NCBI GenBank assembly: GCA_012514535.1
Contig: JAAZAA010000299.1
Location: 1-64,000, forward strand
DNA from: Myxococcales bacterium
GTDB lineage: Bacteria > Myxococcota_A > Polyangia > Polyangiales > Polyangiaceae
Length of the DNA: 64,000 nucleotides
Reading direction: 5' to 3'
The translations under genes and the position numbers were made by a program. The notes beneath the pieces were generated by a model. The model did no database searches. It had not been told where the DNA came from and was given only the letters and a program-made list of their open reading frames with translations. Positions 44,604 to 54,201 of the stretch are shown here, one piece after another; position 1 is the stretch's first letter, and every line of letters starts with the position of its first letter.

Positions 44604-45893
44604 ATGCGCATCCTGAGCGTCTGCAATCTCTTCCCACCCTACGTGTTGGGAGGCAACGAAGTTCGCCTGCGCGAAATCCTGGAACGCCTCCGGTCGCAGC
44701 ACGAGGTGCGCGTCCTCACGAGCGCTCCGCCGCACGACGTCCACGCTCCCCCGGAGCCGTGGATCACCCGGGAGCTCGTCCAGGCCGTGCCGTATCCGCG
44801 GCCCATCACGGACCGCAGACTGTATCTCGCGCGAGAGCTCGTGGTCAGCGCCCTCAACTACGCCACCACGCTCCGGATCATCGAAGAGTTCACGCCCGAC
44901 GTGGTCTATGTGAGCGACACCAAGCGCACCTTCCTCGGCCCTGCCCACGCCGCGCAGCGCGCCCAGCTCCCGCTCGTCTGGGACATCACCGATCTGTCCC
45001 TCCTGGCGTACAGGCGCCGCCAGGGGCTCCGCCGCTGGGCGCCCTGGGCACACCTGGACGGGCTGAGCTTCCGGTATCCGATCGCGATCTCGCGCTTCAT
45101 CCGCGACGAGCTCATCCGCCAAGGAGTGCTCGAGCCAATCGCGGACGACGAGGCCGGCTACATCCGGCAAGGCGTGGACCTCTCCCGCTTCGCGGTCGAC
45201 GAGCCCGCGGTCGCCGACGGTCCGGCCCATCGCCTCCTGTTCGTCGGCACGCTGATCGAGGACAAGGGAGCGCACGTCGTGCTGCGCGCCCTCGAGCGCC
45301 TCGTGCGCCACGAACCCCCGGGGCATCCTGGGTATCGCTTGACGGTCTGCGGCGACAGCGGGGACGAGGCCTACAAGGCGCGTCTCCGCGCCATGGTGGA
45401 CGGCAGCGAGCTCAAGGACCGTGTGATCTTCCGGGGGCGCGTCACGCCGCAGGAGGCGGCGCGGATGTACCGCAGCCACGACGTGTTCGTGTTCTCGTCC
45501 ATCTGGCCAGAGCCCTTCGCGACGACGCCCCTCGAGGCGATGGCCTCCGGATGTCCCGTCGTCGGGACGCCGGTGGGTGGCCAAGCCGACTTCTTCCGAC
45601 ACGACGAAAACTGCCTCACCTACCGACCCGAGAGCGACCTCGAGCTGGCGGATCGCCTGCGCGCGCTGGCGGACCCGGCGCGGCGTCGACGGCTCGCGTC
45701 GCAGGCTCTGACGGAGGTCAAGGCCAAGTTCGACGTGCGCGACTACGTCCGTCGTATCGAGGAGGTCCTCCTGGAGGCGGCGGCGCGGCCCAACCCCCAA
45801 ACGATGAACACCTCGCGGCTCATCGCGGGGGCGGGTACGCCGAGCCAGTCGCTGGGGTCAGCGAGTCAGAGCGCCGATCCCGGCTCCCGGTGA
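44604..45893 (+). CDS. GT4-family glycosyltransferase
   Basis: A 429-aa GT-B protein with RILSVCNLFPPYVLGGNE at the N-terminus and LLFVGTLIEDKGAHVVLRAL, GRVTPQEAARMYRSHDVFVF and WPEPFATTPLEAMASGCPVVG in the donor half. It has a low-complexity C-terminal tail (Ser/Gly/Pro-rich). No strong Shine-Dalgarno precedes the ATG at 44604. It ends 26 bp from the convergent flippase gene. Confidence 0.92.
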   Translation: MRILSVCNLFPPYVLGGNEVRLREILERLRSQHEVRVLTSAPPHDVHAPPEPWITRELVQAVPYPRPITDRRLYLARELVVSALNYATTLRIIEEFTPDVVYVSDTKRTFLGPAHAAQRAQLPLVWDITDLSLLAYRRRQGLRRWAPWAHLDGLSFRYPIAISRFIRDELIRQGVLEPIADDEAGYIRQGVDLSRFAVDEPAVADGPAHRLLFVGTLIEDKGAHVVLRALERLVRHEPPGHPGYRLTVCGDSGDEAYKARLRAMVDGSELKDRVIFRGRVTPQEAARMYRSHDVFVFSSIWPEPFATTPLEAMASGCPVVGTPVGGQADFFRHDENCLTYRPESDLELADRLRALADPARRRRLASQALTEVKAKFDVRDYVRRIEEVLLEAAARPNPQTMNTSRLIAGAGTPSQSLGSASQSADPGSR

Positions 45894-45919
45894 GTTGGCT
45901 CCCGGTGAGCTCACTGAGC

Positions 45920-47515
45920 TCAGCGTGCCATCGCGCGCTGGAAACGTCCTCGCAGGCGAGCCACCACATACTGCCGCTCCTCGGGCGCGACCCCGAGCCA
46001 CCAGAACGCCACCCAGAACACGACGACGTTGATCGCCTCGAGGAGCGCCACCTCCCACAGGGCGTCCACGAGCCACACCTGCCGCAGAGAGTGCTGCACC
46101 GCGACCATCGCCAGGCACGGGAGGACGCTGGGGAGCAAGGTCTGCCGATAGAAGGCGGGCAGCCCGACCCCGAAGCGCCCCCGCATCCGCGGCTGGACGA
46201 GGCACACGTCGGTGGCGAGCGGTCCCACGAGGGAAGCCGCCGCCACGCCGATGAGGCCGAACTCCACCACGAGCCCCATGGACAGCCCCAGGTTCAAGAT
46301 CTGCCCCAGGATCATCGCGAGGGCGAGGAACCGCTGATCTCCGCACATGCTGAGCTGACTCTGCGAGTTCCCGTGGACCAACGACCCCAGGCTCGCGAGT
46401 AGGAGCAGCTGCATGGGGACGATCGTCTCTTCGAACTCGGGCCCCATCCACGCCAGCACCAGAGGGCGCGCCAGCACGGCGCAGCCGATGAGCAACGGCG
46501 TGGCGAACGCCACGGTGAACCGTGTCCCGGTGAGCCACACGCGCACCAGCCGCTCCTGAGCACCGGCGCTGTGGAGCTCCGCCACCACCGGCGTCAGGGT
46601 GCGCGTGATCTGAATGCAGAAGGTTCTGGCCTCGTCGGTCACCCGGAGTCCGATGGCGTAGACCGCGACCGCCGTCAGAGGCAGCGCGCTCTTCACCACG
46701 AAGGTGTCCACCCGTGAGCCGACGAGCGCGGCGATCTGGATCAGCATGAGGTAGAAGGAAAAACCCCAGATCTCCCGCAGCACGCTCCAATCGAAGTACC
46801 TGGGAGCGATGCTCACCTCGCGGCGCATCGTCGTGGCGCAGTGCACCGCCACCAGCAGTGCCGGCAGCAACGTGGCGATCCAGTTCAGCCACGCGAACGT
46901 CCGCAGGCTCGGGCTCATGGGGAGGATCAGGAGCACCGCGCTGAAGTAAACGAGGTTCGTCCCGATGTGGTATCCGTTCGCCAGCCACGTCTTCTGGTCC
47001 CCCACGAGCACGCCGCGAAACATCGCCAGAGGCAGCTTCAACAAGAACCCCGACGCAGCCACCAAGAACACGACCTCGGCGATGGGCCGGAGCTGGTGCG
47101 GCAGCTCGAACAGGGAGTCGAAGTTCTGGTAGAGGGAGAACGAGACGACCGCCAGGACGGTCGACTGGGCGACGAAGACCCAGAACAGCGTGCAGATCAC
47201 GCGACGGAGCCTGGCCGGATCGCGCTTCCCCCGAGCGTCGGCCACGTACTTCACCACGGACGTCCCGAAGCCGAGATCGATCAGGGTAAACAGGCTCACC
47301 ACGGCCCAAATCAAGCTCCAGAGGCCCCATTCCTCCTTCCCGACCGTATGGACGACGAAGGGAATGAGGACGAGGAACACGACGGCGTCGACCGCCCGAT
47401 CCACCTGGCTCGTCACCGTGTTGACGACGATGCGTTTCAGCCCGAGACGCTTCGAGTCACTACTCGGCGTCGTCGCGGGACCGCTCGGGGCTTCCGAATC
47501 ATCGGCTTTCGACAT
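45920..47515 (-). CDS. Wzx-type oligosaccharide flippase
   Basis: A 531-aa polytopic membrane protein with about 12-14 hydrophobic segments and the MATE/PST-type pattern: VVNTVTSQVDRAVDAVVFLVLIPFVV, GKEEWGLWSLIWAVVSLFTLIDLGFG, and a middle FSFYLMLIQIAALVGSRVDTFVV. It would move lipid-linked repeat units across the inner membrane. I start at the ATG at 47515. It is divergent from a GT4 gene. Confidence 0.9.
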   Translation of the reverse strand: MSKADDSEAPSGPATTPSSDSKRLGLKRIVVNTVTSQVDRAVDAVVFLVLIPFVVHTVGKEEWGLWSLIWAVVSLFTLIDLGFGTSVVKYVADARGKRDPARLRRVICTLFWVFVAQSTVLAVVSFSLYQNFDSLFELPHQLRPIAEVVFLVAASGFLLKLPLAMFRGVLVGDQKTWLANGYHIGTNLVYFSAVLLILPMSPSLRTFAWLNWIATLLPALLVAVHCATTMRREVSIAPRYFDWSVLREIWGFSFYLMLIQIAALVGSRVDTFVVKSALPLTAVAVYAIGLRVTDEARTFCIQITRTLTPVVAELHSAGAQERLVRVWLTGTRFTVAFATPLLIGCAVLARPLVLAWMGPEFEETIVPMQLLLLASLGSLVHGNSQSQLSMCGDQRFLALAMILGQILNLGLSMGLVVEFGLIGVAAASLVGPLATDVCLVQPRMRGRFGVGLPAFYRQTLLPSVLPCLAMVAVQHSLRQVWLVDALWEVALLEAINVVVFWVAFWWLGVAPEERQYVVARLRGRFQRAMAR

Positions 47516-47661
47516 TGCACGCGGTGCTTCCTCGCGGCCGATGGGCACGACTCCACGAGCCGAGGAGGGCTCGGGCGATTCCGAGCGGCGCCTTATCCCG
47601 AGCCATCGAGCCGACGTCTGCTCACGTCACTACGGCGTCCCAAGGACCGGAGGTTAGTCAG

Positions 47662-48843
47662 GTGCGGATCGTATTCACTTTGGGGGGAACCGACGCCGGC
47701 AAGTCAGGGCTTGGCAGCTACGTCAACGCGGTGCTGCCCGAGCTCCGAGTCATCACCGACAAGGAGGGTGTCGAGCTCGTGGCGCTCGGCTCCGCGTCGG
47801 AGCTCGAGTCCTATGCCGCCGCGCTCGTCGGCATCCAGACACTCACCGCGCCGCGTTGGGCCGCCTCGCCGGGACCGAGCGCGCTCTGGTACCTGGCGGC
47901 CGCCGGTCGCGCCGCGAAGCTGACCGCGGAGGACGTGATCCTCTACTCGGCGGCCAACCGACGCTTCGGAGCCTTCAACGGAGGCCCCTCGGTCGCGGTG
48001 GTGCACGACCTGGCCCAGCTGCACGTCCCGGGCAAGTACGACGCCTTGCGCATGGCCTATGTCCGCTATGGCCTCTGGTCCTTGCTCCGACGAGCGTCAC
48101 GGCTCGTGGCGATCAGCGAGGCCACGCGCACGGACCTCGTCGACGCCCTCGGGGTGGAGCGCGACCTCGTCGACGTCGTGCCCAACGGCGTCGACGCGAC
48201 GCGCTTCGCACCGCGCGCCCCTGACGATCCCGCCGTGCTCGAGGTGCGGCGGGCCCTCGGGCTCGCCTCCCCCTACCTGCTCTATCCCGCGCGGCTGGAG
48301 CTGCCCGCCAAGAACCACCTGCGGCTGCTGCGCGCCTTCGCCCGCTCCCGCGCCAGCACCTCGCACCAGCTGGTCCTCGTCGGCGCCGACTGGGGGGCTC
48401 GCGCGGCCATCTCCGACGCGATCACGACCCACGGCCTCGGGGCGCACGTGAAGCTCTGCGGTTACGTCGACGACAACGCGATCGCGCCGCTCGTCGCCGG
48501 CGCGGACGGCGTCGTCATGGTCGGCCTCTGTGAGGGGTTCGGGCTGCCGGCGCTCGAGGCGCTCGCCGCGGGGAGGCCGGTGTGCGCGTCCAACACGGGG
48601 GCCTTGCCCGAGGTGGTCGGCGATCTGGGCGCGCTCTGCGATCCGTTCAGCGTCGACTCCATCGCCGACGCGCTCAACCGCGTCGCCTTCGATGACGAAT
48701 ACCGAGCGCAGTGCGCGCGGCGCGGGCCGGAGCTCGCCCGAACCCGCACCTGGGCTCGCACCGCCGAAGGCCTGTATCAATCCTGCCGCCGCGCGGTCGT
48801 TTCCAGGAGGAGCTCACCACCACAGGAGGCGGCAGCAGAGTGA
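47662..48843 (+). CDS. GT4-family glycosyltransferase
   Basis: A 393-aa GT-B enzyme: IVFTLGGTDAGKSGLGSYV at the N-terminus, VVPNGVDATRFAPRA, LLYPARLELPAKNHLRLLRAF and LCEGFGLPALEALAAGRPVCAS in the donor half. The start is a GTG at 47662 behind GGAGG at eight bases; the track ORF extends into the flippase promoter region. Its stop overlaps the next start (GTGA). Confidence 0.92.
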   Translation: MRIVFTLGGTDAGKSGLGSYVNAVLPELRVITDKEGVELVALGSASELESYAAALVGIQTLTAPRWAASPGPSALWYLAAAGRAAKLTAEDVILYSAANRRFGAFNGGPSVAVVHDLAQLHVPGKYDALRMAYVRYGLWSLLRRASRLVAISEATRTDLVDALGVERDLVDVVPNGVDATRFAPRAPDDPAVLEVRRALGLASPYLLYPARLELPAKNHLRLLRAFARSRASTSHQLVLVGADWGARAAISDAITTHGLGAHVKLCGYVDDNAIAPLVAGADGVVMVGLCEGFGLPALEALAAGRPVCASNTGALPEVVGDLGALCDPFSVDSIADALNRVAFDDEYRAQCARRGPELARTRTWARTAEGLYQSCRRAVVSRRSSPPQEAAAE

Positions 48844-50030
48844 GGGTCTTGTTCGTGCACCAGCGCCTCGGCGACCTCGGCGGCGCCGAGTCCACCGTCC
48901 GCAGGCTCGGCGAGGGCCTGCGAGCGCGCGGCGTCGAGCTGGGGCTCGTCCATGGCGAGCTGACCGGCAAGGGACACGAGCGCTTCCGCGACTGCTTCGA
49001 GCGGTGCTGGTGCTGGAAGGAAGGCGAACTGCCGAGCGCCCTGGCTTGGGGCGCGGACGTCACCTTCGTCCACAAACTGGACGACCTCGCGGTGCTCGAG
49101 CACCTCGTGGAGGAGGCCTCCCCGCTCGTGCGCATGGTGCACGACCACGACATTTACTGTCAGCGCCGCCACCGCTACCTGCCCTGGAACCGGGAGATCT
49201 GCACGCGCCGCGCTGGTTGGGTGTGCGGCGCCCTCTGCGGCGTGGTGCGGGAAGGGCAGCGGCTGCGCCTGGCGTGGCCCGGAGACAAGCTGAAGGAGAT
49301 CGAGCTCAGCCGTCGCTTCGACCACCACGTGACGGTCAGCGATTACTTGAAGCGCGAGCTGCTCCTCCACGGCTTCGACGAGGCTCGCATCACGACCTTG
49401 TGGCCCGCCGTACGAGACGCCGCCGCGGACCACCAGGCGACCTATCGGGAGCCGCTGGTCGTGTTCGCCGGGCAGATCCTCCGGGGCAAGGGGGTCGACG
49501 TGCTGCTGCAGGCGCTCGCTCTCCTGCGCACGCCTGGGTGGCGCTGCAGCATCGTCGGGGACGGCTCCTACAAGGGCCGTTGCGAAGCGCTCGTCCGTGA
49601 GCTCCGCCTGGAAGATCGAGTGACGCTGCCGGGCTGGGTGCCCCAGGACGAGCTGCACCGCACGCTTTCGGGCGCTCGCGTGGGGGTCGTGCCCTCCGTG
49701 TGGCCGGAGCCGCTGGGGGCCGTCGGCATCGAGATGCTCCGGCATGGTCTGCCCGTGGTGGGGTTCGACGTCGGCGGGATCTCCGAGTGGCTGAAGGACG
49801 GCGTCAACGGCTACCTGGTGCCGGTCTTCGACCGCGCGCGCCTCGCCGAACGCATCGACGCCCTCCTCGCCGACCCTGAGCTCGCACGCCGCCTGGGGCA
49901 GGCCGGGCGTGAACAGGCAGCGACCTGGTGCGACGAGGAGCGAAACTTCGCGGTCGTCCTCGACGTCCTACGCGACGTGGCAGAGCGCAGCACCTCCCAG
50001 GAGCGCCCGCGAGCCGCGCAACTCGCCTGA
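48840..50030 (+). CDS. GT4-family glycosyltransferase
   Basis: A 396-aa GT-B enzyme with VRVLFVHQRLGDLGGAES at the start, VVFAGQILRGKGVDVLLQALALL, GDGSYKGRCEALV and SVWPEPLGAVGIEMLRHGLPVVG. A cysteine-rich stretch (CFERCWCWKEGE) and a further CQRRHRYLPWNREICTRRAGWVCG segment are unusual for the family and could bind a metal or form disulfides. GTG start at 48840 overlapping the previous stop, with AGGAGG upstream. Confidence 0.9.
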   Translation: MRVLFVHQRLGDLGGAESTVRRLGEGLRARGVELGLVHGELTGKGHERFRDCFERCWCWKEGELPSALAWGADVTFVHKLDDLAVLEHLVEEASPLVRMVHDHDIYCQRRHRYLPWNREICTRRAGWVCGALCGVVREGQRLRLAWPGDKLKEIELSRRFDHHVTVSDYLKRELLLHGFDEARITTLWPAVRDAAADHQATYREPLVVFAGQILRGKGVDVLLQALALLRTPGWRCSIVGDGSYKGRCEALVRELRLEDRVTLPGWVPQDELHRTLSGARVGVVPSVWPEPLGAVGIEMLRHGLPVVGFDVGGISEWLKDGVNGYLVPVFDRARLAERIDALLADPELARRLGQAGREQAATWCDEERNFAVVLDVLRDVAERSTSQERPRAAQLA

Positions 50031-50048
50031 ACACTCCCTGCGAACGCC

Positions 50049-51092
50049 ATGTCCCGATTCACGGTCCACGGCAGCGAACGACTCGAGCGGACGATCGCGG
50101 CTCAGCTCGGGGCGGTACGAGACGACCTCCTGAGCGCGCTCCCCCGTCGGTGGCTCGACTGTCTCGTGCTCGGCGGCGGCTACGGGCGCGGCGAGGGAGG
50201 CGCCGCGCGGACGAGAGACGGGCGCGAAGCCCCCCACAACGACTACGATCTCTTGCTCGTCCACCGCGCCGGCCCTCCGGCGGCGGGAGGCTGGACAAGG
50301 CCGCGGGCTCTCTCGCAGGCGCTCCGCGCGGTGGAGGCGAAGCACGCGCGCCTCACTGGCCTCCACGTCGACATCCTGCCCGTGCACCGAGCTCGCGTGC
50401 GCCGCCTGCCGCCCGCTCTGACCTGGTACGAGCTGGGCCGCGGCCACCACGTGCTCTGGGGCGACGCGCGCACCCTCGATCCCCTCGTGCGGCGGCAGCT
50501 CTCCCAGGTGCATCCGACCGAGTGGGGGCGCCTCCTGATGAACCGCGCGGCGGGACTCACCTTCGCGCGCTGGGTGCTGCGGGGGGAGCCCTGCGCCCTC
50601 GCGGAGGGAGAAGATCCGGACGCGTTCGTCACGCGCCAGCTCCAGAAGGCGTGGCTCGCTTTGGGTGACGTGTGGCTGGCGGATCGCGGCGATTACCACC
50701 ACCTCGTCTGCACTCGCCTGCGCCGCTTCGAGGCCCGGGCGACCGAGCACCCGGCCTGGGCGGACGCCTACCGGGACGCCGTCGCCTACAAGCTCGCTCC
50801 CGGCGCCCCACTCGACCGTCGAAGCCAACGAGCCCACCTCGACGAGCTCACGGAGCTCTACGTACCGCTCCTGCTCGAGCGCGCCGCCTCCCCTCGCCGC
50901 CCCACCGTAGGTCTGCTCGCCACGGTTCGCCACGTCCCCGCGGCTCGTTGGCTGAGCTTGCGGCCCTGGGCCTACCCACGGGAGCGACTACGACGAGCGA
51001 TCGCCGCCGAGCTGTCCGGCGATCGAGCCGGGTTCACCGCGCTCGTCCACGGTCCCGAGCCCTTCCTCCGTCTCTGGAGTCGCTATGGTTGA
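50049..51092 (+). CDS. nucleotidyltransferase-like protein
   Basis: A 347-aa protein with an N-terminal Pol-beta-type nucleotidyltransferase signature: VLGGGYGRGEGG, then NDYDLLLV, and DILPVH as a possible third acidic site. The rest is helical and of unknown function. Proteins of this kind occur in polysaccharide loci but their reaction is not established; they could transfer NMP to a sugar or protein. It lies 18 nt after the GT4 gene and overlaps the GT2 gene by 8 nt. Confidence 0.65.
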   Translation: MSRFTVHGSERLERTIAAQLGAVRDDLLSALPRRWLDCLVLGGGYGRGEGGAARTRDGREAPHNDYDLLLVHRAGPPAAGGWTRPRALSQALRAVEAKHARLTGLHVDILPVHRARVRRLPPALTWYELGRGHHVLWGDARTLDPLVRRQLSQVHPTEWGRLLMNRAAGLTFARWVLRGEPCALAEGEDPDAFVTRQLQKAWLALGDVWLADRGDYHHLVCTRLRRFEARATEHPAWADAYRDAVAYKLAPGAPLDRRSQRAHLDELTELYVPLLLERAASPRRPTVGLLATVRHVPAARWLSLRPWAYPRERLRRAIAAELSGDRAGFTALVHGPEPFLRLWSRYG

Positions 51093-51999
51093 GCCGCTTC
51101 ACCCGATCACCGTCGTCATGCGCAGCTACAACGACGCGCGCCTCCTCCCCCATACCCTGGGCGCCCTGGACGCCCAGGAGGGCGTGACGACGCGGCTGTT
51201 CGTCTTCGAGAGCGCGAGCACCGACGGCTCGAAGGAGATCTTCGAGCGACATGGCTACGACCGCATCGTGCACCTCGAGCCCGGCAGCTACCACTCGGCG
51301 ACGGTGCTCAACCAAGGCACGGAGTGGGCGGAGACGGAGCTCGTCGCCTACGTCAACAGCGACGCGATCATGATGAGCCGCCGTGTGCTGCGCCTGCTCG
51401 CGGACGCCATCGTCGCCGACGAGCGCTGCGCCGGCGCCTTTTGTCGACAGATCGTACGTCCCGACGCGACCCCGATGACGCGGCTCGACTACTTCACGGC
51501 CTTCGACAACCGGCACGAGCTCGGGAGCTTCGCCGACAAGATGAGCCTCGTGTGCAGCATGGTCCGACGCAGCGCCTGGGAAGGGAACCGCTTCGACGGC
51601 GCCCTCACCTTCTCCGAAGACTACGTGTGGAGCCACCGCGCGCAGCTCCAAGGCTGGCGCCTCCGCTACGTCCCCGAGGCCGTCGTCGAGCACAGCCACA
51701 ACTATGGGGCAGACGAGCTCTACCGACGTCACTTCGGCGACGCCGCGGCCCTGGCCTGCATCCGCGACACGGCCCCCAGTAGCTCGGCCCTCGGCGGCGT
51801 CGTGCTGCCCTGGACCAGGCGCTGCCTGCGCGACACCTGGCGCCTCGCCCGCATGGGAGCCTTCACGGAGGCGTGGCGTCTACCGGCCTATCGCTGGCCC
51901 ATGCTCCTCGGAGAGTGGCACGGCGCCCGCGCTGGCTGGCGCCATTTCCGCGATGAGGGGCGCAGCGATCCCCAACCCGTGGCTCCCCGCGTCGCGTGA
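51085..51999 (+). CDS. GT2-family glycosyltransferase
   Basis: A 304-aa GT-A enzyme: ITVVMRSYNDARLLPHTLGAL, FESASTDGSKEI, and VNSDAIMM as the DxD-like site, with a C-terminal EDYVWSHRAQLQGWRLRYVPEAVVEHSHNYG block typical of rhamnosyl-like transferases. Translation is likely coupled to the nucleotidyltransferase-like gene by the 8-nt overlap. It is probably the last gene of the locus. Confidence 0.9.
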   Translation: MVEPLHPITVVMRSYNDARLLPHTLGALDAQEGVTTRLFVFESASTDGSKEIFERHGYDRIVHLEPGSYHSATVLNQGTEWAETELVAYVNSDAIMMSRRVLRLLADAIVADERCAGAFCRQIVRPDATPMTRLDYFTAFDNRHELGSFADKMSLVCSMVRRSAWEGNRFDGALTFSEDYVWSHRAQLQGWRLRYVPEAVVEHSHNYGADELYRRHFGDAAALACIRDTAPSSSALGGVVLPWTRRCLRDTWRLARMGAFTEAWRLPAYRWPMLLGEWHGARAGWRHFRDEGRSDPQPVAPRVA

Positions 52000-52066: not shown

Positions 52067-54094
52067 TCAGGCCCCGGCCCACCAGGCGGATTCGAGCTCG
52101 TCCATCAGCCGCCGCACCAGCTCCCGGGGCGAACGGGCCTCCCGCGCCGCAGCGCGGGCGATCTCCGGCCACTGCTCGATCTCCACGGGCCCGCGCACGG
52201 CGCGATGGGCGCTGACGACGCGATCGATCAGCTCGAGCCGCATCCCGCGGGAGAAGGGCGGCACCACCTCGGGCTCGAGGCGGCTCAGCCGTCGCCTGAA
52301 CAAGGCCGGATCCTCCCCGTCCAGGGTCGACGCGAGCTCCTTCAGCTCCCGGAGGAGCGTGTTCGCTTCCTTGCGGAGCTCCGCGTAAGCGGGAGGAGTC
52401 ATCGCCAACACCACACAGGCACCCGGGAGCGAGCCCCCACAGTAGAACGAGAGCGTGCGCAGCGCCGAGCGGCGTGCTGCCTGGCTCAGCCCCGTGGTGT
52501 AGAGGTTCTCCGCCTCGTCGATCAGGAGCACCGGCCCGGAGCATCCCTCGAGGCGCGCCAGCAGCTCGAGCCACAGCAACAGCCGCCGGTACGCGTCCTG
52601 CCGGTAAGAGGTCCCGGAGCTCTTGCGGGCGAGGTCCTCGGCGCGGAGGAAGTTCTCCAGGGCCTTGCCCGGATCTTTCGCGGCATCGGCGATGAGCAGC
52701 GCCTTCTTGGCGGCGATCGCCTCTGCGCTCGTCCCGAGCGCGATCTCCTCGAGGGTCGTCCGCAGGGCGCGGAGCTTCGCCGGTGAGCGGGTCCAGACGG
52801 ACGCGCGCTGCAGGGCGCTGGGGCGGCCCCGCTTCGGGAGCACGGAGTGATCCAGCAGCCGCGACAGGTGGCGCTGCGGGTTCCCCAGATCGAGGTTCAT
52901 GCGTTCGAGGTTCAACCAGAAGACCGGGTGCCCCTGGGACAGAGCCCGCTCCGCGAGGTGCATGAGCAGGTGGGTCTTCCCGCTGCCGTAGTCCCCGACG
53001 AGGACCTGGAACACGCTGCCCGCCATCTCCGAGTGCGCGAAGAGCCGGTCGACGACGCGATCGATGCGCTCGTGGCCCACGCTCATCGACGTCACCGCCT
53101 CCGTCGGCGGCAGCCCTTGGGAGACCCGCACCAGGGAGCGGAGTGTGACCGGCCGGGTCAGCTCCGGAGAGCGGGGCCGACGGTGCACGTACTCGTAAGG
53201 ATCCTTGATGAGCTGTGTCCAGGCCCGGTGCGGAGGCGGGGGCTCCGCCGGCGAGGGGACCTCCAGGCGCGTCAACAAAGGCGTCAGCGTGCGGATCGAG
53301 CGCGGCCCCTGGAAGAGCCGCTCGTCCCCGGTGATGACGATGCGCGTGCACACCGCGCCGCGCCCCGAGTCGAAGTTGTCGACCAGCTCCCGGAGCACCG
53401 TGTAGGACTTCTCACGTTGACGCTGGGTGCGCAGGGTCAGCGCGCCGCCGTCGTGAAGGAGGACGAGCAGTCCCTTGTATCCCAGGGCCCGCACCAGCCG
53501 CGTCAGCTCGCCGAACACCCGCTGCGCCGTATGAGGTCCGAGCACCGAGCGGACCTCGGCGACGGCGCGCCCCTTGAGCTCGACGCCGCGTGCCCACGCG
53601 TCGAAGGCCCGCACCTCGCGATGGGCGTCGTCCTCGGCCGCCAGGTAGGCGCGGCAGAGGGCCGTCAGATCGCCGCTCGCGTCGAACTCCCCCGTGGCCT
53701 CGTCGAAGCGGTCCAGGGACTTGCGGCCATGCCGCGCATGGAACTCGTCGAGCAACCCCAAGATGCCGGCGACGCGCGTCTCCCGGGCGGGTACCAACGC
53801 GTCCAGGAGCACGGCCACCAGCTCGTGCAGCGCCGCCAGGCTCATCTCCTCGAGGGAGAGCCGCGCCGTCACCCACCCCCGATCCCGAGCCCGCTTGGAG
53901 AGCTCGCGCACCAGCGCCGCCTCGCGCGCGGGAGTGGCGCACTGGGTGAGCGTGACGGAGCTGGCGTCACAGAGCTCGAGATCTCGGAGGGCCTGCTCGA
54001 AGCGGGCCACTTCGTCCTCGACGGTGGAGACGGAGCGGGCAGCGGCAGAAAGCTCCGCGCCTTGCGCCGTAGTGGGGGCAGTCGCAGAAAGCAT
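52067..54094 (-). CDS. BREX-type (DUF2791-like) ATPase with two tandem modules
   Basis: A 675-aa P-loop ATPase of the BrxC/BrxD-related DUF2791 type. The second half has Walker A (GDYGSGKTHLLMHLAE, near 370) and Walker B (VLLIDEAENLY, near 525), followed by TPPAYAELRKEA and a helical C-terminus. The first half resembles another copy of the same module (GYKGLLVLLHDGGALTLRTQ, then YTVLRELVDNFDSG) but lacks a Walker A, so it looks degenerate. No other BREX gene is nearby. I use the ATG at 54094; the track starts at 54157. The function is unknown; regulation or stress response are possible. Confidence 0.7.
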   Translation of the reverse strand: MLSATAPTTAQGAELSAAARSVSTVEDEVARFEQALRDLELCDASSVTLTQCATPAREAALVRELSKRARDRGWVTARLSLEEMSLAALHELVAVLLDALVPARETRVAGILGLLDEFHARHGRKSLDRFDEATGEFDASGDLTALCRAYLAAEDDAHREVRAFDAWARGVELKGRAVAEVRSVLGPHTAQRVFGELTRLVRALGYKGLLVLLHDGGALTLRTQRQREKSYTVLRELVDNFDSGRGAVCTRIVITGDERLFQGPRSIRTLTPLLTRLEVPSPAEPPPPHRAWTQLIKDPYEYVHRRPRSPELTRPVTLRSLVRVSQGLPPTEAVTSMSVGHERIDRVVDRLFAHSEMAGSVFQVLVGDYGSGKTHLLMHLAERALSQGHPVFWLNLERMNLDLGNPQRHLSRLLDHSVLPKRGRPSALQRASVWTRSPAKLRALRTTLEEIALGTSAEAIAAKKALLIADAAKDPGKALENFLRAEDLARKSSGTSYRQDAYRRLLLWLELLARLEGCSGPVLLIDEAENLYTTGLSQAARRSALRTLSFYCGGSLPGACVVLAMTPPAYAELRKEANTLLRELKELASTLDGEDPALFRRRLSRLEPEVVPPFSRGMRLELIDRVVSAHRAVRGPVEIEQWPEIARAAAREARSPRELVRRLMDELESAWWAGA

Positions 54095-54201
54095 GGGTTG
54101 CCTGTGACTACCGCGAAAATCCCCGTTCGTGTCCAGAAATCTCGCCATGAGCGGCATTTTGGCCCTATTTCGGGCTGAAAAATGTCAATCAGGGCCCTGT
54201 T

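Follow-up and report, generated by a model that had tools for sequence, protein, structure and literature searches.

The gene at 52067..54157 on the minus strand of the window (the whole 64,000-nucleotide stretch of DNA that was analysed) encodes a 696-residue protein with two BrxD-type AAA+ ATPase modules in tandem, the second intact and the first catalytically degenerate. It is a new, class-restricted variant that falls within the PF10923 superfamily and outside BrxD proper in score, length and linkage. The best explanation of the evidence, to which we give a little under an even chance, is that it belongs to the resident chromosomal genes of some members of one myxobacterial class and encodes a single-chain pair of ORC/Cdc6-like AAA+ modules acting outside BREX, with module 1 regulating or completing the active site of module 2.

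An earlier note on this DNA had placed the gene at 52067-54094. The open reading frame is present, but the ATG at 54094 is internal, at residue 22 of a frame that runs to an ATG at 54157, and is best listed as an alternative start. A sigma-70 promoter scan found nothing. The same note had called the product a DUF2791-like protein, and the profile search bears this out: the frame matches Pfam PF10923 (BrxC_BrxD), which we take to be the family formerly named DUF2791, in three stretches at 1.4e-26 and 93.8 bits (cut-off 22.2), which places it in the superfamily. The strongest of the three stretches lies in the first, "degenerate" half of the protein, and in several relatives PF10923 matches both modules. 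The nearest specific relative is BrxD of Type-2 BREX, but the score against the NCBIfam BrxD model (NF033438) was 87.7 bits, far below the equivalog cut-off of 350. Against the PADLOC collection the frame gave a partial match to the BrxD model (4.4e-25) and otherwise matches to the P-loop only; no full-length model with partners, as in a listed defence system, was found. A sequence search of the PDB recovered no homologue, and a literature search found neither a paper that mentions DUF2791 nor any account of a tandem BrxD-type family.

The architecture was resolved by profile-profile alignment (hhalign), with BrxD proteins from relatives, including the host genome's own BrxD, as the reference. 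Because two separate alignments to BrxD were obtained, the protein is a tandem: first comes a BrxD core that lacks the C-terminal helical part, then a whole BrxD. Module 1 (residues ~50-318; 53204..54010, minus strand) covers columns 35-327 of BrxD at E 1.4e-21, and module 2 (residues ~347-690; 52088..53119, minus strand), which includes the C-terminal helical part, aligns nearly end to end, with columns 16-393 (E 2.6e-14). Each module is colinear with BrxD, which rules out a circular permutation, an idea raised by the matches of module 1 to the late part of the profile and of module 2 to the early part.

The two modules differ in their nucleotide-binding motifs (all positions on the minus strand), much as the earlier note had read them from the sequence: a full Walker A and B in the second half, and a degenerate first half. 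The intact pair, a BrxD trait, is found in module 2 only. Its Walker A is GDYGSGKT (residues 388-395; 52973..52996), with the P-loop glycines and lysine conserved in all relatives, and its Walker B is PVLLIDEAENL (residues 542-552; 52502..52534), with DEAENL conserved in every aligned row that holds the region. In module 1 the P-loop position is occupied by TLTQCATPAREAALV (residues 69-83; 53909..53953), a lost Walker A site, and the Walker B position by the eroded GLLVLLHDGGAL (53438..53473). The pattern GxxxxGK[ST] is absent from module 1 in 24/24 aligned relatives holding the region, so the combination of dead and live motifs is not a matter of chance. Three relatives still have DE or DD at the Walker B position of module 1 (VLDEGE or VLDDAD), which indicates descent from an active ATPase.

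Other parts of module 1 have been kept. The motif YTVLRELVDN (53375..53404) corresponds to near-invariant alignment columns, and LLTRLEV (53258..53278) contains Arg297, which aligns with the invariant BrxD arginine (LaqR); all relatives that retain the region have an arginine at this position of module 1, as does BrxD. In ORC/Cdc6-type AAA+ proteins the arginine finger comes after strand 5; judging from the alignment, Arg297 probably occupies the finger position of BrxD, and it may serve as a finger equivalent to the published one. Across nine pairs, dN/dS ranged from 0.05 to 0.31 in module 1 and from 0.05 to 0.27 in module 2. The dead module is therefore not decaying, and purifying selection on both modules rules out a decaying pseudogene as well as a decaying first module.

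These features are consistent with a division of labour within one chain. Module 2 would be the motor, binding and presumably hydrolysing ATP. Module 1 appears to have lost nucleotide binding yet retains its fold and, at the finger position of BrxD, the arginine. As a dead partner it would lend structure and perhaps the finger, and would most likely complete or gate the active site of module 2; in a putative head-to-tail assembly that site would probably belong to an adjacent chain. By analogy with what has been proposed for BrxD and its helicase, the ATP cycle may serve as a switch or loader acting on a client. The rings of ORC and of clamp loaders contain catalytically dead subunits, and in these assemblies a dead module with an arginine-finger position stands beside a live one, as in the present protein; this is a functional analogy only, and ORC subunits match weakly in fold. 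The AlphaFold model of the protein is confident, with a pLDDT of 87.6 and a pTM of 0.86, and a Foldseek search of the PDB returned weak matches (best E 1.3e-3, TM ~0.2 over the tandem), among them ORC subunits (E > 0.001), RUVBL and other AAA+ or Walker-type ATPases. Since these matches are weak, the oligomer geometry is without template support.

BrxD has been classed as an ORC/Cdc6 AAA+ protein with an arginine finger and only proposed to load or activate the helicase BrxHI, and BrxC/PglY belongs to the same AAA+ class (PMC12839542). The likeness of the present protein to BrxD lies in the alignment of both modules, module 2 near full length with intact Walker motifs and module 1 with its retained arginine. 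BrxD is, however, a single ATPase module of about 440 amino acids, whereas here two modules, one of them dead, share one longer chain, with low sequence identity to BrxD and no linkage to BrxHI or any other BREX gene. With BrxC/PglY the protein shares the ORC/Cdc6 AAA+ class and a Pfam family of the same name, but BrxC runs to 1200-1300 residues and includes a wHTH and other domains, none of which were found here. Nor is there a helicase partner or a recognised DNA-binding domain fused to the protein or linked to its gene, which tells against the explanation favoured here.

Other arrangements of BrxD-like genes were seen in related genomes. Two adjacent BrxD-like ATPase genes stand with an SNF2-type helicase in three genomes of the class (L121, 5309-12813; L122, 4140-13977; L123, 1-9178), L122 and L123 having a DEAD helicase too and all three loci also carrying unknown genes. 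As in the window's protein, two ATPases of the BrxC_BrxD family are paired, but as separate genes beside helicases and both with a Walker A, whereas the window's gene is one chain with no helicase beside it. A second, single-module BrxD-like gene (451-466 amino acids, ~140 bits to PF10923) occurs in two genomes of one genus (L124, 807-2162; L125, 822-2222), with no evident BREX neighbours.

The earlier note had reported that no BREX methyltransferase, phosphatase or nuclease gene is near, and neighbourhood analysis agrees: the window's flanks hold glycosyltransferases, a flippase, a PutA-type proline dehydrogenase/aldehyde dehydrogenase, an FAD oxidoreductase and an MscS-like channel. The run of glycosyltransferases with a polysaccharide flippase at 44604-51999 is probably a surface polysaccharide cluster. 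No BREX gene, BrxHI included, stands beside any family member in the window or in relatives, and the orphan status first noted for this one gene holds for the family as a whole, also in genomes that lack a BREX BrxD.

Family members of one genus mostly share their neighbours, and from genus to genus the neighbours change, with in general none shared across genera; the only direct neighbour of the window's gene that recurs across genera is the PutA-type gene, which G261 has as well. The orphan and the PutA-type gene form the same pair in both genomes, and in the window the orphan follows 44 nt downstream on the same strand, as would be expected of an ATPase that is encoded in a putA operon and takes part in the use of proline or in redox stress. 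In another genome of the same genus (G002), however, no PutA end lies just upstream and the best PutA match is on another contig, a further genome (G001) has PutA and no orphan, and the pairing is absent in the other carriers. An operon partnership was ruled out because the pairing is not conserved within the genus, and such a role is very improbable.

The family was found in 25/318 genomes of the class (relatives at E < 1e-40), some of which carry two copies. Among 379 genomes sampled from the phylum, matches came only from the same order, and scanning the genome collection with a pattern brought up only MAGs labelled Myxococcota or Deltaproteobacteria. Among plasmids there was ordinary BrxD only, among phages nothing and among viral contigs two weak P-loop matches; no full-length copy was found in any of the three, which rules out a mobile or phage origin. 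In the gene tree several families stay together and two others nest in the clade of the window's gene, so inheritance is mixed.

On another contig (C34, 2204-9498) the host genome (G000) does contain consecutive genes for a protein with a PglZ domain, a true BrxD and a helicase of DEAD/Lhr type, and these are part of a Type-2-like BREX locus; a methyltransferase and BrxC were not seen on that 11.6 kb contig. The orphan might then be an accessory or regulator acting in trans on the genome's BREX, for instance as a partner of the real BrxD, and it is module 1 that is closest to canonical BrxD. A true BrxD is also slightly more frequent among carriers of the family than among non-carriers (10/25 vs 63/293, p 0.046, uncorrected for kinship; counted by hand from the match list, with about 300 bits as the threshold). 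Yet true BrxD was not found in 15/25 carriers, including the complete genomes G048, G316 and G291, and this, together with the family's constant separation from BREX genes, makes such a role improbable.

The earlier note had also raised an undescribed defence function, and a single-gene anti-phage protein in the style of STAND/Avs systems, in which module 1 would be a sensor or a decoy and module 2 a switch driven by ATP, would fit the kinship with a defence ATPase, the patchy distribution with other families nested in the clade, and the weak Avs2, mad8 and NACHT-type matches to the P-loop. Inactive P-loop modules have, moreover, been proposed as sensors in BREX-type systems (PMC12839542). Against this, no effector domain was found, the location is common within genera, full-length copies on mobile elements were not seen, and the 129 flanking proteins include no recurrent defence family beyond a few PADLOC matches, mostly to kinase-type and sigma-54-activator models. 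A defence island was ruled out by these flanks, and the context gives the defence proposal no support; we regard it as unlikely.

The occurrence of relatives across one class, away from defence genes, suggests instead a defence ATPase adapted to another job. It is quite possible, at somewhat less than even chance, that the single-chain AAA+ pair favoured here forms a class-specific dead/live family of ORC-Cdc6 type recruited to a chromosomal process unrelated to BREX, in which it might load a helicase or another client, or remodel it. Should the protein turn out to protect against phage, current catalogues would have overlooked a defence made of a single gene. In its other role it would document a defence-type ATPase put to a different use, and it raises the question of what a BrxD-type ATPase does without BREX. 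As a two-module relative without BREX partners, it would open both the ATPase cycle and the logic of the dead module to study in one protein.
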